The notes beneath the pieces are model-generated. The model saw nothing but the letters and a program-made list of their open reading frames with translations. It did not search any database and was not told the DNA's origin. Positions 8,766 through 52,573 of a stretch of 64,000 nucleotides of DNA are shown in pieces. The position numbers and the translations under genes were made by a program. Source of the stretch: Collinsella sp. An2 (GTDB lineage: Bacteria > Actinomycetota > Coriobacteriia > Coriobacteriales > Coriobacteriaceae); NCBI RefSeq assembly GCF_002160065.1, contig NZ_NFJW01000011.1, positions 1-64,000 on the forward strand. Reading direction: 5' to 3'. The stretch's first letter is position 1. Each line of letters opens with the position of its first letter.

Positions 8766-10214
8766 CTAGGCGCACAGACGAATCACGTCGAACTCGTTGG
8801 TGCCCTCTTTCACGCCCTCAAGCAATGCGCGGCACTGTCCGAGGTTGTGCGCGATCGCAACCTTCTTGCCCGCGATGCGCATGGTCTCGGGAGCCTTCTC
8901 GAAATTGAACGCTACCGGGGCAGTCGCAGCTCCAAAGGTGCGCGCAACGTCGCGCGTCTGCTTGAGCGCGTCGGTGGGCTTGATGCGTCCAAGGTCGACG
9001 CCCGTGCGCTTGAAGGTGCGGTAGACCTCGCGCGCGTTCATGGAAAAGTCCGCGCTACCGAGCTCGTGCGCCTCGGCGCCGTTCTCGTTGCCCGCGGTAA
9101 AGACGACGGTCTTCACGCTGTCGGCATCCCAGCCAAACTCTGCTGCAAGCTTGCGCTTCGCCAGGTCGGTAAAGGTCTGCTGCACCGAGGGGTAGAACGA
9201 GACCTTGTCCTCGATATCGGCAAAGTATTCGTGCACGAAGTTCTTGACCGCAAAGCTGTTGCTAATGATCGCCACGCCATCGGCTTGCTCGATCAGGTCC
9301 TCCGCGAGCGCCTGGTTCTCACCGATCACCTGCTCCTCGCTCACCACGCAGTCGACGCCCTCCTTCACAAGGCCGGCGATGACACGATGGATGTCGAGCG
9401 AGCCGCTCTCGAGATGACAGAGCTTCTCCAGGTCGGGCAGGATCGACGACGAAACCATGCCGACGGTATGGGTCCCGTAGGCGTGCGCGTCGTCGAGCAT
9501 ATCGTCGATGTGCTCCTGCATGTAGACGGCGCCCGTGGGGCACACGTCTACGCAACGTCCGCATCGCACGCAGGGGCTCTCAGCCATGGGCTTGTCCAGA
9601 GCCGACGCTACCCTCGCCTGCCGGCCGCGCCCGATGTAGGCGAGGTTATGGACCGTCTGGATGTCGTTACATACATCGACACACCGACGGCACTTAATGC
9701 ACTTGTCGGGGTTGCGAGTGACCGAGCCGAGCGAGCAGTCCTCCTCGTAGCGGTCGCCCTCGATCGTGAACGGCAGCTGATCCACGTGGTATTCGCGATT
9801 GAGTGCCTGGAGCTCGCAGATGCCGTCGCGCACGCAGTCGCAGAAGAAGCACATCTCGCAGAACCAGAGATCAAGGTCTTGCTCCTTGGTGTTGCCGATG
9901 CGCAGGCAATGGTGGCAGTCGACCGGATGGTGCGCCATGATGAGCTCGAGCGTGAGCTTGCGCTTGGCGCGAACGGCGTCGGTATTGGTGTGCACGACCA
10001 TGCCCTCGCGCACCTTCGTGGCGCACGACGGCATAAAGGTGCGCGCGCCCTCGACCTCGACGATGCACATGCGGAAGGAAGCGCGCGGGTCGAGTTCCTT
10101 GAGATAGCAGAGCGTCGGAATATGGATATCGTTTTGCCGGGCGGCCTCGAGGATGGTGCTACCCTCGGGCACTTCGAGCGCGCGGTCGTCGATCGTCACG
10201 TGCACGTTTGCCAT
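8766..10214 (-). CDS. HylA/NuoG-like iron-sulfur subunit
   Basis: A 482-residue protein resembling [FeFe]-hydrogenase and NuoG. Order: N-terminal [2Fe-2S] domain (about 1-78); a His/Cys cluster region (HPVDCHHC) with an extra Cys-rich insertion (FCEMCFFCDC); two [4Fe-4S] sites (CIKCRRCVDVC, CVRCGRCVDVC); then a hydrogenase-fold remnant from about 240. The H-cluster cysteines are absent: where hydrogenases have TSC..P, this has ISNSFAVKNF, and the MPC motif reads FTAGNE. It therefore should not make H2. The same design is known for HylA of the electron-bifurcating formate dehydrogenase of Clostridium acidurici. One [2Fe-2S] Cys appears replaced by Phe (ASFRMC). It is the last gene of the four-gene operon. 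Confidence 0.85.
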   Translation of the reverse strand: MANVHVTIDDRALEVPEGSTILEAARQNDIHIPTLCYLKELDPRASFRMCIVEVEGARTFMPSCATKVREGMVVHTNTDAVRAKRKLTLELIMAHHPVDCHHCLRIGNTKEQDLDLWFCEMCFFCDCVRDGICELQALNREYHVDQLPFTIEGDRYEEDCSLGSVTRNPDKCIKCRRCVDVCNDIQTVHNLAYIGRGRQARVASALDKPMAESPCVRCGRCVDVCPTGAVYMQEHIDDMLDDAHAYGTHTVGMVSSSILPDLEKLCHLESGSLDIHRVIAGLVKEGVDCVVSEEQVIGENQALAEDLIEQADGVAIISNSFAVKNFVHEYFADIEDKVSFYPSVQQTFTDLAKRKLAAEFGWDADSVKTVVFTAGNENGAEAHELGSADFSMNAREVYRTFKRTGVDLGRIKPTDALKQTRDVARTFGAATAPVAFNFEKAPETMRIAGKKVAIAHNLGQCRALLEGVKEGTNEFDVIRLCA

Positions 10215-10215
10215 C

Positions 10216-11445
10216 TTAGTTCACCATCCTTTCACGGAAGTCCTCCGGGAAGATCTCGTAAGCGCTCACGAAGGCCGTGAGGGCCCCCTGTCCGAGCGCG
10301 CAGAAGCAGTCGGTCGCCATGAGGTCATGAAGCGCCTGAAGCATGTCGAGGTCGGCCTGGGTACCCTTGCCCGCGGCAAAGCGGTCGAGGATGACGCCGG
10401 CCTGGCAGAGCCCCTCGCGGCACGGCGTGCACTTGCCGCAGGACTCGTGACCGAGGAAGTGCACGATCTGCTGGACCTGGTCCACGAGGTTGTGGGTCTC
10501 ATTGAGCACCAGAACCGCGCCGGAACCCAGCGATTTACCGTTGCGACGCAACGAATCGAAGTCGACCGACTGGTCGAGCTCGGAGCCCTTGATGTAGCCG
10601 CAGGACGATCCGCCAAGCTGTACGGCCTTGATCTTGTGACCCTCGGTCACCCCACCCGCAAGCTCGATGACGTCGTTGAGCGAAGCGTCGGTAGCCACCT
10701 CGTAGCAACCCGGGTTCTTGACGTCGCCCGAGATGGAGAACACCTTGGTGCCCGGGTACTCCGCAGCGCCGATGCCCGCGTACCACGCAGCGCCCTTCCC
10801 GACGATGACCGGCACGTTGGCGAAGGTCTCGACGTTGTTCACCACGGTCGGCTTGCCGAAGGCGCCCGCCACCGTGGGGTACGGCGGCTTCAGGCGCGGC
10901 TCGGCGCGCTGGCCTTCGATCGAGTTGAGCAGCGCGGTCTCCTCGCCGCACACGTAGGAGCCAGCGCCCGAGAAGACGTGCATGTGGACATCCCCGGTAA
11001 GGCCGTGCTCCTCGGCCTGCTCCACGGCATGGCGCAGAAGCGCAATCTGATGCTCGTACTCGCCGCGGCAGTAGACAATCGCCTCGGTAGCGCCCACCGC
11101 ATAGGCGGCGATCAGCATGCCTTCAAGAACCGTATGCGGGTCATTCTCCAAGATGACACGGTCCTTGAACGTGCCCGGCTCGCCCTCGTCCGCGTTGCAC
11201 ACGATGAACTTCTGGTCGCCCTCGCTTGCCTTGGCACCCGACCACTTGAAGCCGGTGTTAAAGCCCGCGCCGCCGCGTCCACGAAGCTTCGAGGCGTTCT
11301 CCACCTCGGAGATGAGCTCGTCGCGGTCCATCTGGCGAGCCTTCGCAAGCGCTTCGTAACCGCCCTGCGCGATGTAGTCATCGATGGACATCGGGTCGAT
11401 CTTGCCCATGTTGCGCAGCGCAAGCCGCGTTTCCTGAACCGCCAT
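10216..11445 (-). CDS. NuoF-like NAD(H)/FMN subunit (HylB type)
   Basis: A 409-residue NuoF-type flavoprotein. The FMN/NAD site is seen in GRGGAGFNTGFKWS and NADEGEPGTFKDR, the SLBB fold in the middle (VFSISGDVKNPGCYEV), and the C-terminal [4Fe-4S] ligands in HESCGKCTPCREG plus a later Cys (DCFCALG). It lacks the N-terminal thioredoxin-like and C-terminal ferredoxin extensions of HydB. It should exchange electrons between NAD(H) and the iron-sulfur chain of HylA. Start: ATG at 11445, overlapping the stop of the NuoE-like gene as TAATG. Upstream in-frame sequence has no family similarity. Confidence 0.92.
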   Translation of the reverse strand: MAVQETRLALRNMGKIDPMSIDDYIAQGGYEALAKARQMDRDELISEVENASKLRGRGGAGFNTGFKWSGAKASEGDQKFIVCNADEGEPGTFKDRVILENDPHTVLEGMLIAAYAVGATEAIVYCRGEYEHQIALLRHAVEQAEEHGLTGDVHMHVFSGAGSYVCGEETALLNSIEGQRAEPRLKPPYPTVAGAFGKPTVVNNVETFANVPVIVGKGAAWYAGIGAAEYPGTKVFSISGDVKNPGCYEVATDASLNDVIELAGGVTEGHKIKAVQLGGSSCGYIKGSELDQSVDFDSLRRNGKSLGSGAVLVLNETHNLVDQVQQIVHFLGHESCGKCTPCREGLCQAGVILDRFAAGKGTQADLDMLQALHDLMATDCFCALGQGALTAFVSAYEIFPEDFRERMVN

Positions 11446-11879
11446 TACCTCGTCGCCTCCTTCAAGATGCCGGGGAGCTGATCGGGGGTAACCGCCTGGT
11501 AGAGCACGCCGTTGACGATGATGTTGGGCGCGGTCTCGCAATGCCCGATGCACTCCACGTAATCGACCTGATACGTACCGTCCGGCGAGGTCTCCCCCAC
11601 CGCGCAACCGCACAGCCGCTCGATCTCGTGCAGCAGGTTCATGCCGCCGCGCGTGTAGCAGCTCGTGCCGCGGCACACCTGGACCTTGACGGTCACGGGC
11701 TTAGCAAGATGAATCATCGAGTAGAAGCTGAGCGTCTCATACACCTTTGACGGCGGCATACCCGTCTCGTCCGCAATGGCACACACGTCGTCTTCGGTCA
11801 CCCAGCCGTGATCGCGCTGGCGCTCGAGTGCCCGGTCAAGGACACCCTGATCGCAACTACTTTGCATAGTTCCAGACAT
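11445..11879 (-). CDS. NuoE-like [2Fe-2S] subunit (HylC type)
   Basis: A 144-residue thioredoxin-fold ferredoxin. The helical N-terminal part (VTEDDVCAIADETGMPPSKVYETLSFYSMI) is followed by ligands C in VCRGTSCYTRGG and later CIGHCETAP, the standard C-x4-C ... C-x3-C spacing. It passes electrons to the NuoF-like partner. Start: ATG at 11879 with AAGGAGAGG upstream. It overlaps the molybdoenzyme gene by 23 bp and the next gene by 1 bp, so the operon is tightly coupled. Confidence 0.92.
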   Translation of the reverse strand: MSGTMQSSCDQGVLDRALERQRDHGWVTEDDVCAIADETGMPPSKVYETLSFYSMIHLAKPVTVKVQVCRGTSCYTRGGMNLLHEIERLCGCAVGETSPDGTYQVDYVECIGHCETAPNIIVNGVLYQAVTPDQLPGILKEATR

Positions 11880-14202
11880 CCTGGACCTCTCCTTCCTTCA
11901 ACGCCTCGACACGGCAGGGAACATAGCGGTAGAACGGGTCGCCCGTGATCTCGTCGACGTCCTCGCCCGACGTGAGCTTGTTGACCGCGTCGCCATAGGC
12001 CTTGCCGTGCTCGTCATAGAGACCGAAGTGGTGCGGAATGTTTCCGTAGCCGCGCGCGGTCTGGCGCGAGTACTTGACCGGCACCGTGATGGATCCCGCC
12101 TTCGAGGTCACGCGGACCCACTGGCCGTCGGCAAGCCCCATATCGCGCGCGTCCTCGGGGTTCATGCGGAAGATGTAGGGCTGGCGATAGCGGTACGACG
12201 CCGGGTTGCGCATGATGGTGTTGACGCCCTCTTCGGAGTGCGTGCCCGCCGAGACAAGGAACGGATACTCCTTGGGCATGGCCAGCTTGGCACCCTCCTC
12301 CTCGGGCGTGATGTGGACGATATGCTCGTCGACGGTCTCGTCAAAGAGATGAATCTTCTTGTCGGGGTACATCACCTGGTCCTCAAGCGCCCCCTCAATG
12401 GTGCCGTCGGCACCCGCGATGACCGTACCGCTCGGGCTTGCGTCGACAGCGGCGAAGACCTGGTCGCGGATAACGAGCGGCATGGTCTCGGGGTCGTCCT
12501 CGAGCTCGGGATGCTTATGCGGCAGCGCGTATCCCACGCGCACGGCGTTCTTGACGTTGAGCTCGCCGTAGATGAACTGAGCCCAGAACACCGCCCTGCC
12601 AACGGAGCCCATGGCACGGCCCATGACCTTGTAGAGCACCGGCATGAGCGCATCCATGCGACCGATGCCCGTCAGATAATCCTTCACCGGCTGCAGGATC
12701 GCCAGGCGGTCGTCCGCGTCCACGGCGGCCTGCGCCGCGACGTACAGCTCGTCGGGGATGGTGGGAATGAAGCCCGCGGCATCCATGATGTCCACCCAGA
12801 TCTCCGAATCGTCGCGGCGCTCGCCTGCAACCTCCAGGATGGGATGCTTGAACGTGAGCGTCGAGTACGGGTAGCCGCCCGTGAAGATCGTCGCGCCGAA
12901 CCGCTCATAGCCCGTGGTGCCGGGCAGCACGTAATCGGCGCAGCGACAGGTCTCGGACATCTCGACGTCCACCACGACCAAAAGGTCGAGGTTCTTGAAA
13001 TCGCGAACAAGGCTGCTGGAATCCGGGAAGGAGCGAGCCGGGTTGCCCGCCGTGACAAACAGGCAGCGCAGGCGATCCGCCTCGTTAGGATCTTCCATGC
13101 ATTCCTGCAAGCAGCCGCCCGGATAGTAGCCGAGCGTGGGGAAGCTGTTCGTTTTCCACGTGCGCCAGCACTCGGACGTGTGCTCGTCGGTATAGGGACC
13201 CCAGGCCAGATACCCGTTGGCGATCACGTTGGTACCGGGTCGCATGAGGTTGCCGGTAACCGCCGCGAGCATGTTGATGAGGTAGCACGACAGCGTGCTG
13301 TTGCGCCCGAAGAAGATGCCCAGGTCCACGTGGACGCCCCAGGTCTTGGAGCTCAAGATCTTCGCGAACTCCTCGGCCTGCTCGCGCGGGACGCCGCAGA
13401 CCTCGAGCGCGCCGTCGATATCGAAGTCCTCGAACCATGCCTTGGCCTGGTCCCACCCTGTGGTGTAGGCATCGAGATACTCCTGGTCCTGCCAGCCGTT
13501 CTTGACGATGATCGAGATGAGGGCGCGAACCAGCAGCGCATCCGAACCCGGACGCGGCTTGATGTGCATATCGGCCATGCGCGCCGTCTCGGTCAGGCAC
13601 GGGTCGACGACGATGAACATGCGGTTGGGGTCTTCGGAGCACTCGCGAATGACCTGGCGAGCGTTGCCCACGTTATGGCTCACATAGGTGTTGGCGCCCC
13701 AGATCATGAAGACGTCGTTGCCCGAGGTCTCGCCCTCGATGGGCGGGAACTGGCGACCGACGAACTTGCCGTTGCTCCACCACGGCGCCATGAACTCGAC
13801 CGACAGCGGATTGAACCACCACTGCGTGCCGAGGAAGTTCCCCAGGTCATGCAGAGGGTACATCTCCACCTGGTCGACCGCCAGGCCCACGCCGTAGCAG
13901 CCGAAGGCCTTGGGGCCGTACTGGGCACGAATCTCGTTGATCTTGGCGCCGATCTCGCTGAGCGCCTGCTCCCAGGAAATCTCGACGAACTCGTCGCCCA
14001 CGCGCTTCAGCGGGTGGTTCAGACGGTTGCCGTTGTCCTGAAAGTACTTGAGCGACCGACCCTTGCGGCAGCAATACCCGCCCAGCGAGCGCATGCTGTT
14101 CTTGTCGGGCCGCACGTTGACGACCTTGTTGTCCTCGACCTCGACATCGAGACCGCAGCAGACGCCGCAGTTGTAACAACAGGTCTTCTTCCACACTCCC
14201 AT
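11857..14202 (-). CDS. Molybdopterin oxidoreductase, FdhF2-like
   Basis: A 781-residue member of the DMSO reductase family. The N-terminal [4Fe-4S] motif is CCYNCGVCC plus a later GGYCCRKG. Middle and C-terminal molybdopterin-binding parts are clear (ETARMADMHIKPRPGSDALL; ADGQWVRVTSKAGSI). In formate dehydrogenases a Cys or Sec binds molybdenum. Aligned by eye on LGTQWW/NFLG, the equivalent residue here is Glu136 (NPLSVEFMAP), with no Cys, Sec codon or Ser at that point. Operon context is that of a bifurcating formate dehydrogenase (FdhF2-HylABC), but the substrate is uncertain. It could be another oxidant or reductant. A TetR gene and mobA lie upstream. Confidence 0.85.
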   Translation of the reverse strand: MGVWKKTCCYNCGVCCGLDVEVEDNKVVNVRPDKNSMRSLGGYCCRKGRSLKYFQDNGNRLNHPLKRVGDEFVEISWEQALSEIGAKINEIRAQYGPKAFGCYGVGLAVDQVEMYPLHDLGNFLGTQWWFNPLSVEFMAPWWSNGKFVGRQFPPIEGETSGNDVFMIWGANTYVSHNVGNARQVIRECSEDPNRMFIVVDPCLTETARMADMHIKPRPGSDALLVRALISIIVKNGWQDQEYLDAYTTGWDQAKAWFEDFDIDGALEVCGVPREQAEEFAKILSSKTWGVHVDLGIFFGRNSTLSCYLINMLAAVTGNLMRPGTNVIANGYLAWGPYTDEHTSECWRTWKTNSFPTLGYYPGGCLQECMEDPNEADRLRCLFVTAGNPARSFPDSSSLVRDFKNLDLLVVVDVEMSETCRCADYVLPGTTGYERFGATIFTGGYPYSTLTFKHPILEVAGERRDDSEIWVDIMDAAGFIPTIPDELYVAAQAAVDADDRLAILQPVKDYLTGIGRMDALMPVLYKVMGRAMGSVGRAVFWAQFIYGELNVKNAVRVGYALPHKHPELEDDPETMPLVIRDQVFAAVDASPSGTVIAGADGTIEGALEDQVMYPDKKIHLFDETVDEHIVHITPEEEGAKLAMPKEYPFLVSAGTHSEEGVNTIMRNPASYRYRQPYIFRMNPEDARDMGLADGQWVRVTSKAGSITVPVKYSRQTARGYGNIPHHFGLYDEHGKAYGDAVNKLTSGEDVDEITGDPFYRYVPCRVEALKEGEVQDVWNYAK

Positions 14203-14453: not shown

Positions 14454-14996
14454 CTAGATTCCGAGGTATGTTTTGAGCTCGGCGGGCAGACACGCAAGGA
14501 GAAACGGAATTGCAGCCGCGGGCGACTCCGGCTGTTCCTTGCTGACCTCCTCCACGGCATACGTTATGGTCCCGCCAACGAAGAACCGGGTGAGCCTGAT
14601 GATTCGCTCGGGCACAGCAGCATGCGTCACCTGCGTGATTACCGAGAGATAGCGCTCCAGCAGCGGCTCCAAAAGCGCGTCGGGGACGTTGTTCTGGCCG
14701 GTGTAGCGCACGATGCTCTTCAGTACCGACCGGTCCTTCCATACCACCTCAACGGAATGTGCAAGGAACTCCTCGAACGTGTACGTGTCATGCGCCTCAA
14801 AGAACTCATCGAGCTCGTGAACGTAGAACCACGGCGCAAGGTCGTACTTATCCTTGAAATGATAGTAAAACGTGCGCTTTGCTATATTGCTGGTTGAGAC
14901 AAGCTCGGCAACGGTGATCTTCTCGAACGGCTTCTTTTCCAGAAGCAGCGCGAGGGACCGGGTAAGCTTTTCTTCAGTCGTATGAGGCGAGGTCAT
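14454..14996 (-). CDS. TetR/AcrR-family regulator
   Basis: A 180-residue protein. Residues 1-55 form the TetR helix-turn-helix (LTRSLALLLEKKPFEKITVAEL, then NIAKRTFYYHFKDKYDLA). The rest is an all-helical ligand domain of the TetR_C_8/DhaS-like kind. Start: ATG at 14996 with GGGGG 5 bp upstream. The upstream in-frame codons overlap mobA and are not conserved-looking. It lies between mobA (divergent, 33 bp) and the molybdoenzyme operon (same strand, downstream of the TetR stop), so either is a candidate target. Confidence 0.9.
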   Translation of the reverse strand: MTSPHTTEEKLTRSLALLLEKKPFEKITVAELVSTSNIAKRTFYYHFKDKYDLAPWFYVHELDEFFEAHDTYTFEEFLAHSVEVVWKDRSVLKSIVRYTGQNNVPDALLEPLLERYLSVITQVTHAAVPERIIRLTRFFVGGTITYAVEEVSKEQPESPAAAIPFLLACLPAELKTYLGI

Positions 14997-15029
14997 AGGA
15001 ACCCCCGTACGTAGAGGACGCATGAACCA

Positions 15030-15614
15030 GTGTATACGAGTTTTGACCACGAGGCATTTGCCGGCATCGTGCTGGCGGGCGGCAACTCCAGCCGGATGGG
15101 CCGCCGCAAAGCGCTGCTGCCGTTTCGCGGCACGACGCTGCTTGCGTGGCAGGTGCAAAAGCTTCGCCAGCTCGGACTGGACGAGATCCTTATCTCGGGG
15201 CCGCACGACCTGAGCCTGCCGGGCACGACGTGCGTGGAGGACATCTATTCCGGATGCGGACCGCTCGGCGGGCTTCAGGCGTGCCTCGCAGCAGCCTCCC
15301 GGCCCTACTGTCTCGTCCTTGCCGTAGACACGCCGCTCGTTCCCCTAGACCTGCTTGTGAGGCTCTGTGAGGAGCACGACGGAGGCGTGACCGTGGTCGA
15401 ACACGACCATGGCAAGCTCGAACCGCTGATCGCCGTCTACGACCGCGCGCTGGCGGCCATCATTGAGCGGAGAATCGTTGGCGGCGCCGCGTCCATCAGG
15501 TTTCTGCAGGAGGAAGTTCCCTGGAAGCATGTGCCTTACCGCGGACCCGAGGCGCTGCTTGATAACTGCAACACCCCTGAGGACTATCGGCGAATGCACG
15601 ATGAGCGCATGTGA
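15030..15614 (+). CDS. mobA: Molybdenum cofactor guanylyltransferase
   Basis: A 194-residue GT-A nucleotidyltransferase. The signature is VLAGGNSSRMGRRKALLPF at 14-32, with the metal-binding Asp in LAVDTPLVP and a GPLGGLQACL loop. MobA attaches GMP to molybdopterin to make the bis-MGD cofactor needed by DMSO-reductase-family enzymes, so it fits its neighbour, the molybdoenzyme operon. The start is set as GTG at 15030. An AGAGG about 12 bp upstream is a distant ribosome binding site, so the exact start is uncertain. It is divergent from the TetR gene. Confidence 0.88.
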   Translation: MYTSFDHEAFAGIVLAGGNSSRMGRRKALLPFRGTTLLAWQVQKLRQLGLDEILISGPHDLSLPGTTCVEDIYSGCGPLGGLQACLAAASRPYCLVLAVDTPLVPLDLLVRLCEEHDGGVTVVEHDHGKLEPLIAVYDRALAAIIERRIVGGAASIRFLQEEVPWKHVPYRGPEALLDNCNTPEDYRRMHDERM

Positions 15615-17291: not shown

Positions 17292-17373
17292 ATGGCGGTC
17301 GTCAATGCTCAGTCCAAAGACCTCGCGCCCGTAGGGAGGTGCCGTGAGAGGCTCAATGACTATCATGTTAAAA

Positions 17374-17398
17374 TCATTGAAAACATTGAAATCAATGA
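17374..17398. promoter_or_regulatory. Likely antitoxin operator
   Basis: TCATTGA (17374-17380) and TCAATGA (17392-17398) form a perfect 7-bp inverted repeat around a further ATTGA, 14 bp before the antitoxin start. AbrB-type antitoxins usually repress their own operon at such a site. Confidence 0.6.
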
Positions 17399-17411
17399 AT
17401 GGAGGGCGCAC

Positions 17412-17693
17412 ATGGTCACGATGATGAGCACAAAGCTCACGAAGGGCGGACAAACGACCGTGCCCAAGGAGGTGCGGACGGCGCTCGGCATCGCGGATGG
17501 TGCACGCGTGTACTGGTCGTTCGACGGCCATCGCGCCTGGATCTCCGCCGCGCCGGGAGACCCACTCGAAGTAACCGGTGAAGACGACTTCCGTGCCCGG
17601 CTTGCCGCGGCGGAAGCCGACGTCGCCGCCGGGCACGTGAGGGATGCCGGTGACGTTGCGCGCGACCTGGGTGCAAGGTACGGCCTTGCCTAG
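17412..17693 (+). CDS. AbrB/SpoVT-fold antitoxin
   Basis: A 93-residue protein. Residues 5-48 form the swapped-hairpin AbrB DNA-binding domain (STKLTKGGQTTVPKEVRTAL, then DGARVYW). The acidic, helical tail (about 55-93) is the kind that wraps a toxin. Start: ATG 17412 after GGAGGGC. The toxin frame begins before its stop, giving the usual overlapping antitoxin-toxin order. A TCATTGA/TCAATGA operator precedes it. Confidence 0.88.
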   Translation: MVTMMSTKLTKGGQTTVPKEVRTALGIADGARVYWSFDGHRAWISAAPGDPLEVTGEDDFRARLAAAEADVAAGHVRDAGDVARDLGARYGLA

Positions 17694-18002
17694 CTACGAG
17701 GTCCGTGTTGCCGGACGCTTCGAGGACGATTTGGATACAGCGCTAGAGTGGAGACTGCAGGAAGTCGGCCGCTCGAGCGCCGTCAAGCTCTACGACGCGT
17801 ACCTCTCTACAATCGCGTCGCTCGAAACCTTCCCGCTTATGGGAGGGCGCGTGGAGGACTCCCATACCGATGGACAGCGATCGAGCGCTACGAAGCCATC
17901 TACGTCGTCGACGAGAGAGCGCACACCGTTACGCTTCTGCGCCTTTTTCACATGTCATCCGACTGGCGGGCGAGGCTGCTCGCCGGGCCCTCAAGCTACT
18001 AA
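17686..18002 (+). pseudogene. RelE/ParE-type toxin, frameshifted
   Basis: It starts at TTG 17686 (or GTG 17671) inside the antitoxin's last codons. The N-terminal 55 residues (YEVRVAGRFEDDLDTALEWRL; SLETFPLMGGRV) fit the ParE/RelE helices. Near 17858 the frame is lost: the rest of the fold (RWTAIERYEAIYVVDERA, then HTVTLLRLFHMSSDWRARLL) continues one base out of phase. Adding one base in GGACTCCCAT would rejoin them. The first frame runs on to 18162 with meaningless sequence. The toxin is therefore probably inactive. Confidence 0.75.
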
Positions 18003-36976: not shown

Positions 36977-37723
36977 TTACGCTCCCCCTGTCATTTTGCC
37001 GATGTGATACCGACCCACTCCAGTCAGGCGCTCTATCGTTCGTATCGAGAATCCCGCAGCTCGAAGCCTCTTCAGGCACCGATCACGTTCGGCAGCGGGC
37101 AGCTCTTTCACCTTGTCCGGCCTGATTCCCCGCAACACAAATACCGCCTCGTTTGCAGCATCCTCATCCTGTCGACCAGGTCTGCCTTCAAAAGCGTAGT
37201 CATCGTCACCATAATTCACACTGAACCGCGTAAACGCGTCCTTTCCACCCAGCAGGTCAAGCAGCATGCCAGTATCTGCGATTTTGGCATCCCCTGTATA
37301 TTCACGATAGCTGCTCCACTTGTAGGAATCACGCGCGCAGCCAAACGCCTGCGGATTATCGTGGATGTAGCGGACCGCCTGCAGCAGATACGCCTCGGTC
37401 TCGAGGGCTTTGCTCTTGAATCTACCTTCAAAGAGAGCGCCCACGTGGCCGGTCTTCGCATTGATATACCGTGCATACATACTGGAAAACCGGTGCATCA
37501 TGGAGGATAAATGATCCGATACGTCGGACAACAGTAGATGAACGTGGTTGTCCATCAGGCACCACGCGACGATCTGAATCGAATCGATATCAGCCGCCCG
37601 CCTGAGCAAACGCAGAAACTCGCGCCGATCTTCGTCGTCGTAGAAAATCGTCTGTCTACCATTGCCCCTCAGCACCACATGGTAGAACCCCGATTCGGAT
37701 TTAACGCGCGCCTGTCGTACCAT
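36977..37723 (-). CDS. REP-associated tyrosine transposase (RAYT)
   Basis: A 248-residue Y1-type HUH nuclease. The N-terminal strand is SGFYHVVLRGN, the metal-binding HUH motif is H60-V-H62 (AWCLMDNHVHLLL), and the helix AYLLQAVRYIHDNPQAF carries the candidate catalytic Tyr (112 or 119). A C-terminal part (about 170-248) ends with a helix-turn-helix (SIRTIERLTGVGRYHIGKM). RAYTs nick REP hairpins and are linked to REP spread. REP sequences flank it on both sides (36926 and 37907-38025), as expected. Start: ATG 37723. A GTG three codons earlier is possible. Confidence 0.9.
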   Translation of the reverse strand: MVRQARVKSESGFYHVVLRGNGRQTIFYDDEDRREFLRLLRRAADIDSIQIVAWCLMDNHVHLLLSDVSDHLSSMMHRFSSMYARYINAKTGHVGALFEGRFKSKALETEAYLLQAVRYIHDNPQAFGCARDSYKWSSYREYTGDAKIADTGMLLDLLGGKDAFTRFSVNYGDDDYAFEGRPGRQDEDAANEAVFVLRGIRPDKVKELPAAERDRCLKRLRAAGFSIRTIERLTGVGRYHIGKMTGGA

Positions 37724-37906
37724 AGCCCTCACGTCCTGCGTCCTTTATGGCAGCCCGCTTATGTGGATGATGTGCCACCCGAATCAGGCGTCGCTATAGC
37801 AAGCACCGGCGACATCTCTCCGCAGCGATTTCCCATTTGGATAATGGGATATTCATACCCGAAATCTTTGCAGGTAGTATGCACGATTATGAACGCGCCC
37901 CATTTC

Positions 37907-45532: not shown

Positions 45533-46219
45533 CTACGCCTCGAGCGCGGCCTTGAACCAGGAGGTCAGGCTCGTGGGGTGCGTGATGGCGGTTCCCACCA
45601 CGACGGCCCAGGCGCCGGCGTCGATGGCGGCGCGGGCCTCCTCGGGCGTATGTACACGCCCCTCGCACACCACGGGGAAGCCGGGGAACTCCTCGGCCGC
45701 CTGACGCAGCAGCGGCAGATCGGGACCGTCGGCCATGGTGCAGTCGATTGCCGCCACGCCGTGCGAGAGCGTGGTCGAAACGATGTCAAAGCCCATGTCT
45801 ACCGCGCGACGGATGTCATCGATGGTCATGCAGTCAGCCATGGTGAGGACGCCCTCCTCCTTGAGCGGAATCAGGGTGTCGGCAACGGTCTTGCCGTCCG
45901 GACGGGGGCGGTCGGTAGCGTCGATGGCCACGATGTCGGCGCCGGCGGCGACGCAGGCACGCGCATGGCGGAGCGTCGGGGTGATGTAGACGCCCTCGTG
46001 CCCCTCTTTCCACAGACCGATGACCGGGACCTCCGTGCGGCCCTTGATGGCCGCGATGTCGGAGAGGCCCTGGCAACGGATGGCGGCGGCGCCGCCCAGC
46101 TCGCAGGCGCGAGCCATTTGGGCCATGGTCTCGGGATTGCGCAGCGGCTCACCCATATAGGCCTGCACGCTCACGATGAGCTTGCCCTTGAGAGATTGAA
46201 TCAGCGGATCGATTGCCAT
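45533..46219 (-). CDS. nanE: N-acetylmannosamine-6-P 2-epimerase
   Basis: A 228-residue NanE TIM barrel converting ManNAc-6-P to GlcNAc-6-P. Recognisable strands: KLIVSVQAYMGEPL, GAAAIRCQGLSDI, VPVIGLWKEGHEGVYITP, DIVAIDATDRPRP and CEGRVHTPEEARA. The Lys in GLWKEG is the expected catalytic base. Last gene of the sat-nan operon. Preceded by a repeat element and the kinase gene. Confidence 0.95.
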   Translation of the reverse strand: MAIDPLIQSLKGKLIVSVQAYMGEPLRNPETMAQMARACELGGAAAIRCQGLSDIAAIKGRTEVPVIGLWKEGHEGVYITPTLRHARACVAAGADIVAIDATDRPRPDGKTVADTLIPLKEEGVLTMADCMTIDDIRRAVDMGFDIVSTTLSHGVAAIDCTMADGPDLPLLRQAAEEFPGFPVVCEGRVHTPEEARAAIDAGAWAVVVGTAITHPTSLTSWFKAALEA

Positions 46220-46328
46220 AGGATCCGTCTCCTTTCAGCATGTTACGAAATGGTTCAACTCCGAGGCCGGACGGCCGTACGCACGGCGACCGCCAGTAAA
46301 ACGAAGGTGCGATGCCCCATCAATCGCC

Positions 46329-46433
46329 GGGTTTCCCAAGTGCCGCAGGTTCGTGCGAACGAGGAGGGAGCACGCCTTGCGTGCGGCGACCGACGAGTGA
46401 GCGCGAAGATGCGGTGCTTGGGGAAGCCGAACC
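46329..46433. repeat. 105-bp palindromic element, copy 1
   Basis: Left arm GGTTTCCCAAGTGCCGCA, right arm complement of GATGCGGTGCTTGGGGAAGC, centre GCACGCCTTGCGTGCGGCG. A copy with the same layout is at 62137-62239. It sits between nanK and nanE and touches the nanK stop. Confidence 0.8.
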
Positions 46434-47386
46434 TAGCATTCAGCGTAGCCTGAGAGCACAAAGTTCTCCGCCGCACCGATAAGCGGCGCATCTCCACCCA
46501 GCTCGCCATCGACGACGGGCGTCGTCGCAACCGGCGGCATGGCCTGGCCCTTGAAGGCCTCCTTCATGGCGTCCGACCAATCCGGTCCGCACTGTGCGAC
46601 CGAGCCGGAAAGGATCACGCAGGCGGGGTCGAGCATGTTGCACATGCTGCCCAGCACTTCGCCAAGCGCGCGGCCAGCACGGGCCTCGGCAGCCTTCGCG
46701 GCCTCGTCGCCCGCGGCGGCACGGCGATCGATCTCGGCGCCGTCCATGGGCTTGCCGTCAAACGTCTCGTCGCCGCCGAGGCGAATGTACTCTGCGATGA
46801 TACCGGGACCCGCGGCGATGGGCTCGAGGTGCCCCGTCGCGCCGCAGGAGCACGGCACGCCGGCCGCTGCCGGGCAGCACACGTGACCGATATGGCCCGC
46901 CTCGTCATGCGCGCCGAGCATGATGTGCCCGTGCTCCACGAAGGCGCCGCCGATGCCGGTACCCACGGCCGCCACCAGGCAGCTCTCCTTGCCGCGGCCG
47001 CCGCCCCAACGCGCCTCGCCGAGTGCGTGCGCGTGAACGTCGTTGAGCACACGGCAGGCAAAACCCGTCGCCTTGGTAACCTCGGTCGCAAGCGCGGTGC
47101 CGCCCCAGCCGGGCATGAGCTCATTGGCAAAGGTGATGTCGCCGGTGCGCGGGTTCACCACGCCGGCCGACGAGATGCCCACGCCGGCAACCTCTCCATC
47201 GGCGCGCTCGATCGCAGTCTTCACCTGCTCGATGACGGTGGCCAACACGTGCTCTCCGCCCTTCATGGCGTCGGTCGGCACCTTCTCGACCTTTTCGATG
47301 ACGGGAGCGTCCCCGCCGAGCGTCACGAGGCCGCACGCAATCTTCGTGCCGCCGATATCAACCGAAACGATGGTCTTCGTGTCCAT
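46433..47386 (-). CDS. nanK: ROK-family sugar kinase (ManNAc kinase)
   Basis: A 317-residue ROK kinase. N-terminal phosphate loop VSVDIGGTKIACGLV, catalytic Asp region CRVLNDVHAHALGEA, glycine loop AVGTGIGGAFVEHG, and the ROK zinc motif CCPAAAGVPCSCGATGHLE. ROK enzymes phosphorylate several sugars. Its place between nanA and nanE makes N-acetylmannosamine the likely substrate. Start: ATG 47386 with AAGGGG upstream. Confidence 0.88.
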   Translation of the reverse strand: MDTKTIVSVDIGGTKIACGLVTLGGDAPVIEKVEKVPTDAMKGGEHVLATVIEQVKTAIERADGEVAGVGISSAGVVNPRTGDITFANELMPGWGGTALATEVTKATGFACRVLNDVHAHALGEARWGGGRGKESCLVAAVGTGIGGAFVEHGHIMLGAHDEAGHIGHVCCPAAAGVPCSCGATGHLEPIAAGPGIIAEYIRLGGDETFDGKPMDGAEIDRRAAAGDEAAKAAEARAGRALGEVLGSMCNMLDPACVILSGSVAQCGPDWSDAMKEAFKGQAMPPVATTPVVDGELGGDAPLIGAAENFVLSGYAEC

Positions 47387-47430
47387 GGCAACCCCTTTCG
47401 CGCCGCGGATCGCTCCGCGCGCATCATACA

Positions 47431-47463
47431 AGCGCGCCCGCCCGCAAACGCAGGCGGGCGCGC
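47431..47463. other. GC-rich hairpin between nanA and nanK
   Basis: GCGCCCGCC / GGCGGGCGC arms, no U-tract. Possible RNA-stability element within the operon. Confidence 0.55.
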
Positions 47464-47508
47464 ACAACCCGTTGTCGGCAGGCCGTCTCGCAGACGGCAC
47501 TCGGCCTG

Positions 47509-48429
47509 TTACAGAAGCCCGTTCTCCTCGAGGACCTTGCGAATGGCCTCGACGTTATCGCCCTTGAGAGAGTGAACCGGGCGCGGCATCTGGTTGGTCT
47601 CGAAGATACCCATAAGCTGCAGCGCCGTCTTGAAGGCGCCGACGCCCGCGCCGAAGCCCTGGACGCCCTTGGTCACCGCGGTGATGCGCATGATGCGCGC
47701 CAGGCGATCCTGCTCCTTCTTGACCGTCTCCCAGTCGCCGGCCTGAGCCGCCTTCCACTGGCGCACATAGCCGTAGGGCTCGACGTTCGCAAGACCCGGC
47801 ACCGAGCCGTCGGCACCGGAGAGGTACGCGCCGTCCACGACGACCTCATGGCCGGTGAGGATGGACATGGGATGCCCGGCCTCCTCGTTGCCCATGACGA
47901 GATAGCGGAACGAGATGTCGTCGCCCGAGGAGTCCTTCACGCCGGCGAGCACACCGTCCTTGCCCAGACGAATCAGCATGTCGGTGTCGAGCTTGTTGTG
48001 CACGCACACGGGAATGTCGTAGGCAAAGATGGGCAGGCCGAGCGCGTCATGCAGGCAGCGGAAGCTCCACTCGATCTCGTCGATACCCTGCAGCGCATAG
48101 AACGGGCAGGTGGCCACGAGGGCGTCGACACCCATCTGCTCGGCACGCTTGCCGTGCTCGATCATGCGCTCGGTCTCGGTGTCGATGATACCGGCGAGCA
48201 CGGGCACGCGGCCGTCGACCGCCTTCACCGTGGTCTCGATGATGTGCTCGCGACGATGGTCGGTCGAGAACACGACCTCACTCGAGGAACCCAGGATGAA
48301 CAGGCCGTCCACGCCCGCCTCGATCATGCGGTTGATGTTGCGCTCGAGCGACGCGACGTCGAGGTGGCGGTCCTGCGTAAGCGGGACGACGACGGGCGGG
48401 ATGACGCCGGTAAACTTCTTGGTGGTCAC
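47509..48429 (-). CDS. nanA: N-acetylneuraminate lyase family aldolase
   Basis: A 306-residue DapA/NanA-family Schiff-base aldolase. TIM-barrel motifs FTGVIPPVVVPLTQ and GVDGLFILGSSSEVVF, Tyr in VATCPFYALQ, and Schiff-base Lys in GVLAGVKDSSGD. The family also includes dihydrodipicolinate synthase and keto-acid aldolases. The adjacent nanK, nanE and Sat-type transporter support sialic acid cleavage to pyruvate and ManNAc. Overall length fits NanA. Confidence 0.85.
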   Translation of the reverse strand: MTTKKFTGVIPPVVVPLTQDRHLDVASLERNINRMIEAGVDGLFILGSSSEVVFSTDHRREHIIETTVKAVDGRVPVLAGIIDTETERMIEHGKRAEQMGVDALVATCPFYALQGIDEIEWSFRCLHDALGLPIFAYDIPVCVHNKLDTDMLIRLGKDGVLAGVKDSSGDDISFRYLVMGNEEAGHPMSILTGHEVVVDGAYLSGADGSVPGLANVEPYGYVRQWKAAQAGDWETVKKEQDRLARIMRITAVTKGVQGFGAGVGAFKTALQLMGIFETNQMPRPVHSLKGDNVEAIRKVLEENGLL

Positions 48430-48622
48430 AGGTGACTCCTTAGTGTTGCGCGTCTCGACCTCCTGCCGAGACGCTGGTGTCGGGATCCAAAGACCCCCGC
48501 CCCATGATAGCGGGGCGACAGCGCGAAGGAAGGGTGTTTGAGAACTCTTTCGAACGCCCTTCCCTTACTCACGGGCGCGCGCCCGACAAAGCAGGCGCGC
48601 GCCACGAAAACGATACGATGCC

Positions 48623-49453
48623 CTACGCGGACTGCCCAAGCTTTGGATGCAGCAGCGAAGGCGCCGCCCCCAGCAGCAGCTTGGTGTAGGGATCCTGCGG
48701 GTCCTCGAAGACCTGCTTGGCAGGACCCTGCTCCATGATCTGACCGTGGTTCATGACGATGATGCGGTCGGAGATGTAGCGCTCCGTCTGGATGTCATGG
48801 CTGATGAAGACCATGGCGAGACCGAGCTCCTTCTTGAGGTCCGTAAGCAGGTTCAGGATCTGTGCACGCACAGACACGTCAAGGGCCGAGGTGGGCTCGT
48901 CGGCGATGATGACGTCCGGGCGCAGCGAGAGCGCACGGGCGATGGCGACGCGCTGGCGCTGGCCGCCGGAGAGCTGACCGGGAAGCGCGTACATGGCCGA
49001 CGACGGCAGGCCGACGAGGCTCACGAGCTCCTTGGCGCGCTCCTCGCGCTCGTCCTCGGTGCCGACCTTGTGCACGATCAAGGGGTCGAGCAGCTGGTCG
49101 TGGACGGACATGCGCGGGTTCAGAGCGGTGGCCGGGTTCTGGAACACCACGGAGACCACACGGCCGATCTTCTTGCGAAGCTCAGCGGTGCGCTTCGTGA
49201 CGTCCTCGCCCTTGAAGTACACGTGGCCCGAGGTGGGCGACTGCAGGCCGCACATGACGTTGGCGGTCGTGGACTTGCCGCAGCCGGACTCGCCTACCAG
49301 ACCGATGGTCTCGCCCGGCATGAGCTTGATCGTGAGTCCGTTGACGGCATGCACGAGGTTGGGATGCAGCAGCGAGCCCGTACGGGTCTTGAACGTGACC
49401 GAGATGTTGTCCAGGAAGATGATGGGCGTCTGCGTCGAGCTGTTCTCAGCCAT
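48623..49453 (-). CDS. satD: Sat-type ABC transporter ATPase
   Basis: A 276-residue Opp/Dpp-family ATPase. Walker [10 protein letters not shown]-loop VVFQNPATALNPRMSVHDQL, signature LSGGQRQRVAIARAL and Walker B VIIADEPTSALDVS. It starts directly after the fusion gene's stop. In Haemophilus ducreyi the sialic acid transporter SatABCD has the same set of parts. The symbol is given by that analogy. Confidence 0.85.
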   Translation of the reverse strand: MAENSSTQTPIIFLDNISVTFKTRTGSLLHPNLVHAVNGLTIKLMPGETIGLVGESGCGKSTTANVMCGLQSPTSGHVYFKGEDVTKRTAELRKKIGRVVSVVFQNPATALNPRMSVHDQLLDPLIVHKVGTEDEREERAKELVSLVGLPSSAMYALPGQLSGGQRQRVAIARALSLRPDVIIADEPTSALDVSVRAQILNLLTDLKKELGLAMVFISHDIQTERYISDRIIVMNHGQIMEQGPAKQVFEDPQDPYTKLLLGAAPSLLHPKLGQSA

Positions 49454-51475
49454 CTACCTCACCTCCAGTCGGGAAACGAGACCGTTCTTTGCAAGCTCCT
49501 CGTCCGGAATCTCGGCGACGAAGTGATGCTCCACGCCGGGCACGGGCTTGAGGATGGGATGGACGTCGAGGCCGACCGTGGGGTGGCTCGAACGCGGCGC
49601 GAAACGGTCGCCCTTGGGGAAGTCCGCCGGGCTCGGCACGGAACCGGGCACCTGGTGCAGACGTTTGCCATCGTGCGCCTCGATGGAGAGCACGGAGCCA
49701 AGAAGGCCCTGGGTGTACTCGTGGATCGGGTTGGTGAGCAGCTCCTTGGTGGGGGCGGACTCGACCACCTGGCCGGCGTACATGACGGTGATCTCGGAGG
49801 CGACCTCGGCGACGAGCGCCAGGTCGTGCGAGACGAAGATCATGGCGAAGCCGAGCTTGCGCTGCAGGTCGTTCAAAAGCTTGATGACCTGCTTCTGGAC
49901 GGTCACGTCGAGGGCCGTGGTGGGCTCGTCGCAAATGATGAGCGACGGGTCGCGCGTAAGCGCCATGGCGATGATGACGCGCTGGCACTGGCCGCCGGAC
50001 AGCTCGTGCGGATAGGACTCAAGCGTACGCTTGGGGTCGAGACCCACGAGCTCGAGGAGCTCCTCGGCGGTACGGGTGCCGCCGCGGCTGGTGAGCTGCT
50101 TCATCTGAGCGGAGATGAGCATGGAGGGGTTGAGGGCCGAAAGCGAGTCCTGATAGACCATCGCGAGCTCGTGGCCGAGCAGCTTGCGGTGCTCTTCCTT
50201 GGAGAGCTTGAGCAGGTCCTGGCCCTTATAGAGCACCTCGCCGGTGATGCGGGCGTTGTCGGGCAGCAGGTTCATGATGGTCTTGGTGGTGATGGACTTG
50301 CCGCAGCCGGACTCGCCCACGAGCGCCATGCACTGGCCGGGACGCACGTCGAACGAGACGTTGTCGACCACGTTGACGTCGCCGTGGCGCGGGAAGCCGA
50401 TGGAGAGGTTCTTCACCTGCAGGATCGGCTCGACCGAATAGTCGGGCACGTGACGATCGGTACGGGCAAGCTCGACCTTGCGCAGCGCTGCCAGGCGGGA
50501 GGCCAGGGTCTCGGCCTGCTCCTTGTAGGCGCGCACCGGGTCGGCGACCAACAGGTCGGCTTCGCGGCGGCTCTCGGCGTTCTCGTTGCTCACGGGAGCG
50601 GACGGAGCGGCTGCCATGGCGTCGGTCAGGCCCTCGGAGAGGATATTGAGCGCCAGGCAGGTGACCATGATGGCGATGCCCGGGAAGAGCGCCTGCCACC
50701 AGCGGCCAAGCAGCACGCCGTCGCGCGCCGAAGACAGGATGTTGCCCCAGGTGGCGGTCGGCTCGGCAATGCCGGCGCCGATGAAGGTCAGCGACGCCTC
50801 GAAGATGATGGCGTCGGCGACGAGCGTCACGGTGAAGACCATGATGGGCGCGATGCAGTTGCGCAGCACATGCTTCATGAGAATCCACGGGGCGCGGGCG
50901 CCGGACACGATCACGGCGCGAACATAGTCCTCGCCGTACTCGGAGACCACGTTGGCGCGCACGATACGCGCGATCTGCGGGGTGTACATAAAGCCGATCG
51001 AGAAGATGATGGCCGGCACGGAGTTACCGAGAATCAGCACGAGAATGGCTGCGAGGGCGATGCCCGGGATGGACATGACGACGTCGAGCACGCGCATGAT
51101 GACCTCGGAGACCGCCTTGCGCGAGACGGCTGCAAGGGCGCCGATGACGGAGCCGCAGATGAGGGCGAACAGCGTCGCACCAAAGCCGATCACGAGCGAG
51201 TAGCGACCGCCGTACAGCATACGCGACAGAATGTCGCGGCCCGCGTTGTCGGTACCAAAGATATGGTCGGCGCTCGGCGGCTGATATGCCTTGGTGATCT
51301 CGAGCGGGTTATGCGGCGCGATGAGCGGAGCCAGAATGGCAGAGAGCGCCACAAGGATGAGGAGCACGAGCGAGATCTTGCTCGACAGGCTCATGTTCTT
51401 GATGCCATGGAACTTGGCACTCCGAGATGCCGCCTCCTCGAGCTGGGCGGTCTTTTTCTCTCTAATCTTTACCAT
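49454..51475 (-). CDS. satC: Permease-ATPase fusion of Sat-type transporter
   Basis: A 673-residue protein. Residues 28-285 form an OppC-type permease (LSSKISLVLLILVALSAIL; FGTDNAGRDILSRMLYGGRY; five further helices). A linker of about 60 charged residues follows, then an ATPase domain (about 350-670) with Walker A GESGCGKS, signature LSGGQCQRVIIAMAL and Walker [15 protein letters not shown]. Such a fusion is the hallmark of SatC-type sialic acid systems and some actinobacterial peptide transporters. It overlaps neither neighbour but lies within 6 bp of both. Confidence 0.9.
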   Translation of the reverse strand: MVKIREKKTAQLEEAASRSAKFHGIKNMSLSSKISLVLLILVALSAILAPLIAPHNPLEITKAYQPPSADHIFGTDNAGRDILSRMLYGGRYSLVIGFGATLFALICGSVIGALAAVSRKAVSEVIMRVLDVVMSIPGIALAAILVLILGNSVPAIIFSIGFMYTPQIARIVRANVVSEYGEDYVRAVIVSGARAPWILMKHVLRNCIAPIMVFTVTLVADAIIFEASLTFIGAGIAEPTATWGNILSSARDGVLLGRWWQALFPGIAIMVTCLALNILSEGLTDAMAAAPSAPVSNENAESRREADLLVADPVRAYKEQAETLASRLAALRKVELARTDRHVPDYSVEPILQVKNLSIGFPRHGDVNVVDNVSFDVRPGQCMALVGESGCGKSITTKTIMNLLPDNARITGEVLYKGQDLLKLSKEEHRKLLGHELAMVYQDSLSALNPSMLISAQMKQLTSRGGTRTAEELLELVGLDPKRTLESYPHELSGGQCQRVIIAMALTRDPSLIICDEPTTALDVTVQKQVIKLLNDLQRKLGFAMIFVSHDLALVAEVASEITVMYAGQVVESAPTKELLTNPIHEYTQGLLGSVLSIEAHDGKRLHQVPGSVPSPADFPKGDRFAPRSSHPTVGLDVHPILKPVPGVEHHFVAEIPDEELAKNGLVSRLEVR

Positions 51476-51480
51476 GAGGC

Positions 51481-52446
51481 CTACACCGTCCTAATGCGCG
51501 GGTTGATGAGCAGGTACAGCATGTCAACCACGATGTTGATGATGACGAAGGCCAAGGCCACCACAACGACGACGCCCTGAACGAGCATGATCTCGCCGCC
51601 GGTGATGCCCTGCTGGATGAGCGTACCCATGCCGGGGAGGGCAAAGATGACCTCGATGACCACGGCACCGCCCATGAGGTAGCCGATCTTGAGGCCGAGC
51701 GTGGTGACGGGCGTGATGAGGGCGTTGCGCAGCACGTTCTTGGCGATGACGACGTTCTCGGGGATGCCGCCGCCGCGGGCCGTCTGCACGTAGTCCTTAT
51801 CGAGCTCCTCGACCATGGCCGTACGCACGATACGCGTCATCTGGCCGATGACCGGGAAGGCCAGAGCGATGGCGGGCATGATCATGCGTCCAAAGTAGCC
51901 CGCCGGGTTGGTAAACAGGTTGGGAAGCGCGCCCGAGGACGGGAAGACGCGCGTAAGATGGCCGATAGAGACCGCAAGGATGAGCAGGACCGCGAGCCAG
52001 AACGACGGCGTTGCGATGCCTGCGATGGATATCACACGTATGATCTGGTCGGGCCATCGGTCTCTATATATTGCCGATATCACGCCCAGGGTAAACGAAA
52101 CGACGGCGGCGATGATGAGGCCGAAGAACGTAAGCTGCATGGTGACGGGCAGCGCCGACGCGATGGCCGTGGCTACCGGCGTCTGGCGGCTGCCATAGGT
52201 GCCCAGGTCGCCCTGAACAAGGCCCGCAATGTAATCAACGTAACGGACGGGCCACGGATCGTTCATGCCGTGCTCGTCCATGTACTGCTCGACCTGCTCC
52301 GGGGATGCGCCCTCACCGAGGACGGTACGTGCCGGAATCGACGGGTCGGTAAAGGACATGAGGAAGAACACCAACAGGGTGACACCGAGGGCCATGATCG
52401 GCAACGCGATGATACGTCGACCGATGAGGCGCAGAAGGTTGTTCAT
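51481..52446 (-). CDS. satB: Sat-type ABC permease (OppB family)
   Basis: A 321-residue permease with the OppB opening (LLRLIGRRIIALPIMALGVTLL), the outer loop (PEQVEQYMDEHGMNDPWPVRY), and five further helices with the ATPase-contact loop QTARGGGIPENVVIAKNVL. It pairs with the permease half of the fusion protein. Start: ATG 52446 with AGGAGAGGG upstream. Confidence 0.92.
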   Translation of the reverse strand: MNNLLRLIGRRIIALPIMALGVTLLVFFLMSFTDPSIPARTVLGEGASPEQVEQYMDEHGMNDPWPVRYVDYIAGLVQGDLGTYGSRQTPVATAIASALPVTMQLTFFGLIIAAVVSFTLGVISAIYRDRWPDQIIRVISIAGIATPSFWLAVLLILAVSIGHLTRVFPSSGALPNLFTNPAGYFGRMIMPAIALAFPVIGQMTRIVRTAMVEELDKDYVQTARGGGIPENVVIAKNVLRNALITPVTTLGLKIGYLMGGAVVIEVIFALPGMGTLIQQGITGGEIMLVQGVVVVVALAFVIINIVVDMLYLLINPRIRTV

Positions 52447-52573
52447 ACCCTCTCCTCTCTCTTCTTACCAACAGTGTTATAAGGAGAGCCCGAGCAACGA
52501 CTGCCCGGGCCCTCCGAACGTCCTTACTGTCTCCCCCTCAAGATGTTGGGAAGACGAGAGATGGGCTAGGGTT

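Follow-up and report, generated by a model that had tools for sequence, protein, structure and literature searches.

A putative glutamate ligand in a probable NADH-linked molybdoenzyme complex of Collinsella sp. An2

What does a molybdoenzyme do when its operon resembles that of an electron-bifurcating formate dehydrogenase but glutamate stands where the metal ligand is expected? This question is raised by the first 64,000 nucleotides of contig NZ_NFJW01000011.1 (forward strand) of Collinsella sp. An2, RefSeq assembly GCF_002160065.1, which we call the window. A first-pass annotation, made from the DNA letters, had correctly located the operon at 8766–14202; its four minus-strand genes are tightly packed, with overlaps or a 1-base gap between neighbors (Table 1). 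We lean, by a little, toward reading it as a soluble, ferredoxin-independent molybdo-oxidoreductase linked to reduced nicotinamide adenine dinucleotide (NADH), with a putative Glu ligand to molybdenum (Mo) or tungsten (W) held by bis(molybdopterin guanine dinucleotide) (bis-MGD), in a rare clade that appears to have spread horizontally.

Glutamate at the metal-ligand column

The catalytic subunit matched Molybdop_Fe4S4, Molybdopterin and Molydop_binding, all above the curated Pfam cut-offs, which places it in the MopB superfamily, and it has kept the CxxCxxxC cluster motif. We aligned a profile of the Glu-bearing family to Protein Data Bank (PDB) chains. Glu136 fell, with no local gaps, opposite selenocysteine (Sec) 140 of FdhH, the Sec of the F420 formate dehydrogenase (F420-FDH), the Cys of HDCR-FdhF, and Cys141 of acetylene hydratase. 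In an independent MAFFT alignment, each of the seven outgroup enzymes had either Cys or Sec (in-frame TGA) at this column, and each of the five full-length family members had Glu. A wider alignment added only outgroups with Cys, save three (W, S, Y) that stood beside alignment gaps. The two claims of the first-pass annotation about this site, that Glu136 occupies the Cys/Sec ligand position and that the Cys of acetylene hydratase aligns there, were thus borne out. An alignment assigning Cys, Sec or Ser as the ligand was also looked for, and no Cys, Sec or conserved Ser emerged. Ser134, two residues before the column, is Gly in family member L045 and Leu in L031, and is therefore not the ligand; nor did we find the conserved Ser ligand of the Ser-ligated MopB enzymes (DmsA, TorA, PgtL).

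The protein ligands tabulated for the superfamily by Wells 2023 (PMC10100899) are Sec, Cys, Ser, Asp or none, and the text of that paper makes no mention of a glutamate ligand. Our searches of an open-access library turned up no Glu ligand for the superfamily. The Asp-ligated enzymes (NarG, PcrA, SerA, ethylbenzene dehydrogenase) likewise offer a carboxylate to Mo, which is putative here, but theirs is Asp and they form a separate superfamily branch. Because the relatives in our case are formate-dehydrogenase-like, the carboxylate would have arisen independently. Whether the enzyme represents a Glu-ligated Mo/W-bis-MGD class beside the Sec, Cys, Ser, Asp and ligand-free ones, wired to NADH and with a reaction unassigned to any molybdoenzyme, we regard as evenly balanced.

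Acetylene hydratase (Pelobacter/Syntrophotalea) is not known to have an NADH module. By sequence it belongs with the nearest solved structures, but we rejected identity with it, since its Cys141 and Asp13 are Glu136 and Gly13 in the catalytic subunit. A related alternative is that Glu136 does sit at the ligand position while, as in arsenite oxidase, no residue of the protein binds the metal. Glu would then serve as a general acid/base, and the reaction might be non-redox or hydratase-like. AioA and IdrA do lack a protein ligand (PMC10100899), and acetylene hydratase was among the best profile matches. However, Asp binds Mo in NarG-type enzymes (PMC10100899), which gives a carboxylate precedent; a dedicated NADH module would be superfluous for a hydratase, and the hydratase's Asp13 is missing. 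We consider this alternative unlikely, though a real contender.

Loss of the usual ligand could also mark a non-catalytic MopB scaffold (as NuoG, ActB and QrcB) that no longer binds the cofactor. This is improbable, as all three domains score above their cut-offs, the cluster motif is intact, MobA or FdhD genes flank several family copies, and the Glu is invariant, with no sign of drift.

Formate dehydrogenase residues and the electron-transfer subunits

The Sec or Cys ligand is not the only feature of Mo/W formate dehydrogenases that has been lost. The active-site His141 of FdhH is Phe137 in the catalytic subunit, the RGQNN motif (FdhH Arg333) is absent, and the NCBIfam model TIGR01591 scored 236 bits against a cut-off of 666. 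The window's genome (99.87% complete) contained no FdhD and no second PF00384 protein; MoaA was present. Because the ligand, His141 and Arg333 are missing, and neither FdhD nor another PF00384 protein was found, the catalytic subunit is, as judged from its sequence, not a formate dehydrogenase. Lachnospiraceae TWA4, which carries family member L032, keeps separate canonical Sec-containing formate dehydrogenases, one with a NuoE-like gene beside it, and therefore the Glu complex is no substitute for formate dehydrogenase there. The fused N-terminal Fe-S region found in two of these TWA4 Sec subunits is absent from the catalytic subunit. In Clostridia RUI439 (L033), FdhD flanks the operon and the genome also carries a Cys-containing formate dehydrogenase.

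The remaining three subunits resemble the parts of a HydABC-type complex. Pfam identified Fer2, Fer4 and Fe_hyd_lg_C in the HylA-like subunit, 2Fe-2S_thioredx in the NuoE-like subunit, and Complex1_51K, SLBB and NADH_4Fe-4S in the NuoF-like subunit. HylA is defined as a HydA homologue without the H-cluster motifs L1, L2 and L3 (PMC6085437), and our HylA-like subunit is such a protein. It also carries a 24-amino-acid (aa) insert with four extra Cys (CxxCxxCxC), which was kept in all four copies compared (window, L032, L033 and the Solobacterium copy L034) and had no counterpart in the N-terminal domains from two Sec-containing formate dehydrogenases and from a related subunit of TWA4. The insert may hold an additional [4Fe-4S] cluster.

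Losey et al. 2020 (PMC7311640) gave four criteria that separate bifurcating from non-bifurcating NuoF-like subunits. The bifurcating signature includes Ala/Glu and Met at Thermotoga maritima HydB positions 232/234, Phe at 367, and GGPSG at 427–431 (PMC7311640). According to Schut et al. 2022 (PMC9304861), non-bifurcating homologues lack clusters B2–B5 and bind NADH with no ferredoxin interaction. On all four counts the NuoF-like subunit sided with the non-bifurcating proteins. It has 409 aa, one CxxCxxC motif and C383, whereas bifurcating homologues have 584–630 aa, so that the extra B2–B5 clusters are missing; it has Thr93/Lys95 (PGTFKDR versus bifurcating PGAFMDR), Tyr165 (GAGSYVCGE versus GAGAFVCGE), and GGSSC in place of GGPSG. 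The single cluster, PGTFKDR and GAGSYVCGE were identical in L032, L033, L034 and L045, and the third motif in L045 was GGGSC, likewise not GGPSG. In the Solobacterium copy, from a metagenome assembly, the NuoF-like gene (L034:2031–3263) is split into two open reading frames (ORFs) by a frameshift or stop, a possible assembly error.

Because the NuoF-like subunit shows all four non-bifurcating features, a ferredoxin link of the complex seems unlikely on sequence grounds. The first-pass annotation had proposed that the complex links NAD and ferredoxin and matches the bifurcating FdhF2-HylABC of Clostridium acidurici; the NAD(H) part and the HylA-like subunit stood up, and the ferredoxin part and the match of the HylB-like subunit did not. 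Its idea of a substrate other than formate is supported by the Glu column and the lost formate dehydrogenase residues.

FdhF2-HylABC (Type 3 Fdh-Bfu) also comprises a HydA-like protein without H-cluster motifs, NuoF-like and NuoE-like proteins, and a separate molybdoenzyme. Set apart by description, the window's complex differs in having lost Sec, His and Arg, in its Glu column, and in a NuoF-like subunit devoid of the extra clusters and bifurcation residues. A canonical enzyme of that type, whose active-site change was misaligned or is tolerated, would fit the operon content and the HylA-like subunit. It is very improbable and already contradicted by the alignment, with three active-site residues missing, Glu conserved across five genomes, FdhD lacking from the genome of the window, the low TIGR01591 score, and all four bifurcation criteria failed. 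Syntrophomonas wolfei Hyd1ABC, an NADH-dependent [FeFe]-hydrogenase, is likewise a HydA/HydB/HydC-type, NADH-linked complex with a non-bifurcating beta subunit, but catalysis there takes place at the H-cluster of HydA, whereas the window's operon has a degenerate HydA and adds a molybdoenzyme. FdsA of Rhodobacter capsulatus has a Cys ligand, and its electron-transfer domain is part of the same polypeptide. The FdsABG type is also a soluble NAD(H)-linked complex of the dimethyl sulfoxide (DMSO) reductase family whose NuoF-like subunit lacks B2–B5 (Schut 2022, PMC9304861), but the window's complex has a separate HylA-like electron-transfer subunit and a different active site. The Eggerthella lenta corticoid 21-dehydroxylase cluster (Elen_2451-2454: FdhD, ferredoxin, molybdoenzyme, SPFH) was ruled out because its gene set is different.

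Spread and neighbors of the family

A search of about 1,560 genomes and one scan of GTDB contigs turned up the family in five genomes besides that of the window. The five full-length members, from Actinomycetota and Bacillota, are 33–68% identical, and the Glu is invariant; the operon is conserved across phyla. In the phylogeny, which took in no characterized catechol dehydroxylase (Cdh) sequence, the members with Glu grouped as a single clade (support 100/100), and midpoint rooting put them on the same side as the formate dehydrogenases; the join (89/89) is not strong. Among the 66 further genomes that we searched within the window's own family there were no members, the best matches being ordinary relatives at about 28% identity. 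Identity of 68% across phyla and the lack of members in these 66 genomes suggest that the clade spread by horizontal transfer. Scans of IMG/VR returned no family member, and three ordinary formate dehydrogenases only.

In a genome of the same order (G319; L031/L046) there were more than ten DMSO-reductase-family matches, and its Glu member (33% identity) lies beside a MobA-like gene. The 12 kb read there showed no NADH-module genes, though the gene lies about 0.9 kb from the start of the contig.

L032 and L033, like the window, have TetR genes next to the operon, which makes three genomes, and an organic-ligand inducer is plausible. An Rfam scan within the window detected no riboswitch near the operon, and tRNAs only.

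Table 1. Positions in the window, related proteins in the same genome, and family members.
Feature	Position	Strand	Description
Catalytic subunit, DMSO-reductase (MopB) family	14202–11857	minus	781 aa; one N-terminal [4Fe-4S] motif; Glu136 at Mo-ligand position
Glu136 codon GAG	13797–13795	minus	column of FdhH Sec140 and acetylene hydratase Cys141; motif E-F-x4-W-x2-G
NuoE/HylC-like subunit	11879–11445	minus	144 aa; one [2Fe-2S] (C69, C74, C110, C114)
NuoF/HylB-like subunit	11445–10216	minus	409 aa; flavin mononucleotide (FMN)/NADH; one [4Fe-4S] motif
HylA-like subunit	10214–8766	minus	482 aa; [2Fe-2S] region, His/Cys [4Fe-4S] motif, 2x[4Fe-4S], degenerate HydA domain
HylA-like Phe47 codon TTC	10076–10074	minus	
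CxxCxxCxC insert of HylA-like subunit	approximately 9834–9906	minus	
TetR-family regulator adjoining operon	14454–15023	minus	start codon about 14996–15023
MobA-like nucleotidyltransferase	15030–15614	plus	cofactor maturation; divergent from TetR regulator
Xanthine-dehydrogenase-family (PF02738) molybdenum hydroxylases	G000:C21:9156–9881 and G000:C45:95424–96143		window's genome
L032			Lachnospiraceae TWA4, wallaby forestomach acetogen; 68% identity; Glu
L033			Clostridia RUI439; 68% identity; Glu
L045			38–39% identity; Glu
L031			32–33% identity; Glu
L034			Solobacterium, sheep rumen; sequence ends before Glu site

Elsewhere in the window, NanE, ROK kinase and DHDPS-family (NanA-like) genes with an oligopeptide-type ABC transporter (45533–54172) look like a cluster for sialic acid uptake and catabolism. 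An IS200-like (Y1_Tnp) transposase lies at 36977–37732. At 17292–18002, an ORF with a weak MazE-antitoxin match is followed by a small ORF with no Pfam match, a possible toxin-antitoxin pair.

Proposed reaction and points against it

In the mechanism that we propose, the cytoplasmic catalytic subunit would bind Mo- (or W-)bis-MGD, most likely with Glu136 as the protein ligand, and would form a complex with the non-bifurcating NADH dehydrogenase module. Electrons would pass from NADH to the FMN and [4Fe-4S] cluster of the NuoF-like subunit, through the HylA-like clusters to the [4Fe-4S] cluster of the catalytic subunit, and on to Mo, which would reduce an oxygenated, perhaps organic substrate. 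That is, the cell would gain a ferredoxin-independent means of reoxidizing NADH. The direction is probably reductive, because FdhD is lacking, so that a terminal sulfido ligand is probably absent, and because the host is presumed to be fermentative. The complex might instead run oxidatively, with a substrate oxidized at Mo and NAD+ reduced; the NuoE/NuoF module also occurs in NAD-linked formate dehydrogenases, which are reversible. This direction we judge the less probable by a clear measure: the lack of FdhD makes a terminal sulfido ligand less likely and the formate residues are lost, although another oxidizable substrate would be compatible with both facts.

Several points weigh against the reductive, Glu-ligated enzyme. 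Coordination of the metal by Glu is deduced from the position of the column, and AioA binds its metal through no residue at all. AlphaFold models had mean predicted local distance difference test (pLDDT) values of 34.8 (4 sequences) and 52.4 (7 sequences), with the Mo-site segment below 50; owing to these low values the geometry was not used for the Mo site. Foldseek with the weak model returned DMSO-reductase-family folds at template modeling (TM) scores of about 0.4. The genes for molybdenum cofactor (Moco) synthesis may also serve the two xanthine-dehydrogenase-family proteins of the window's genome, and we dropped the idea that they serve only the Glu enzyme. Lastly, Phe47 of the HylA-like subunit stands where the three compared relatives have one of the four conserved Cys of the [2Fe-2S] cluster; this could be a sequencing error or a partial decay, with loss of one cluster ligand.

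The chemistry of an enzyme in this superfamily depends in part on its protein ligand. A conserved Glu ligand in an enzyme akin to formate dehydrogenases would, if true, add a new natural variant, and it points to a reaction beyond the known ones. The hosts so far are a small number of gut bacteria, of which some come from herbivores (sheep rumen, wallaby forestomach). Because the wallaby acetogen TWA4 has been isolated and sequenced, the question is open to direct test.

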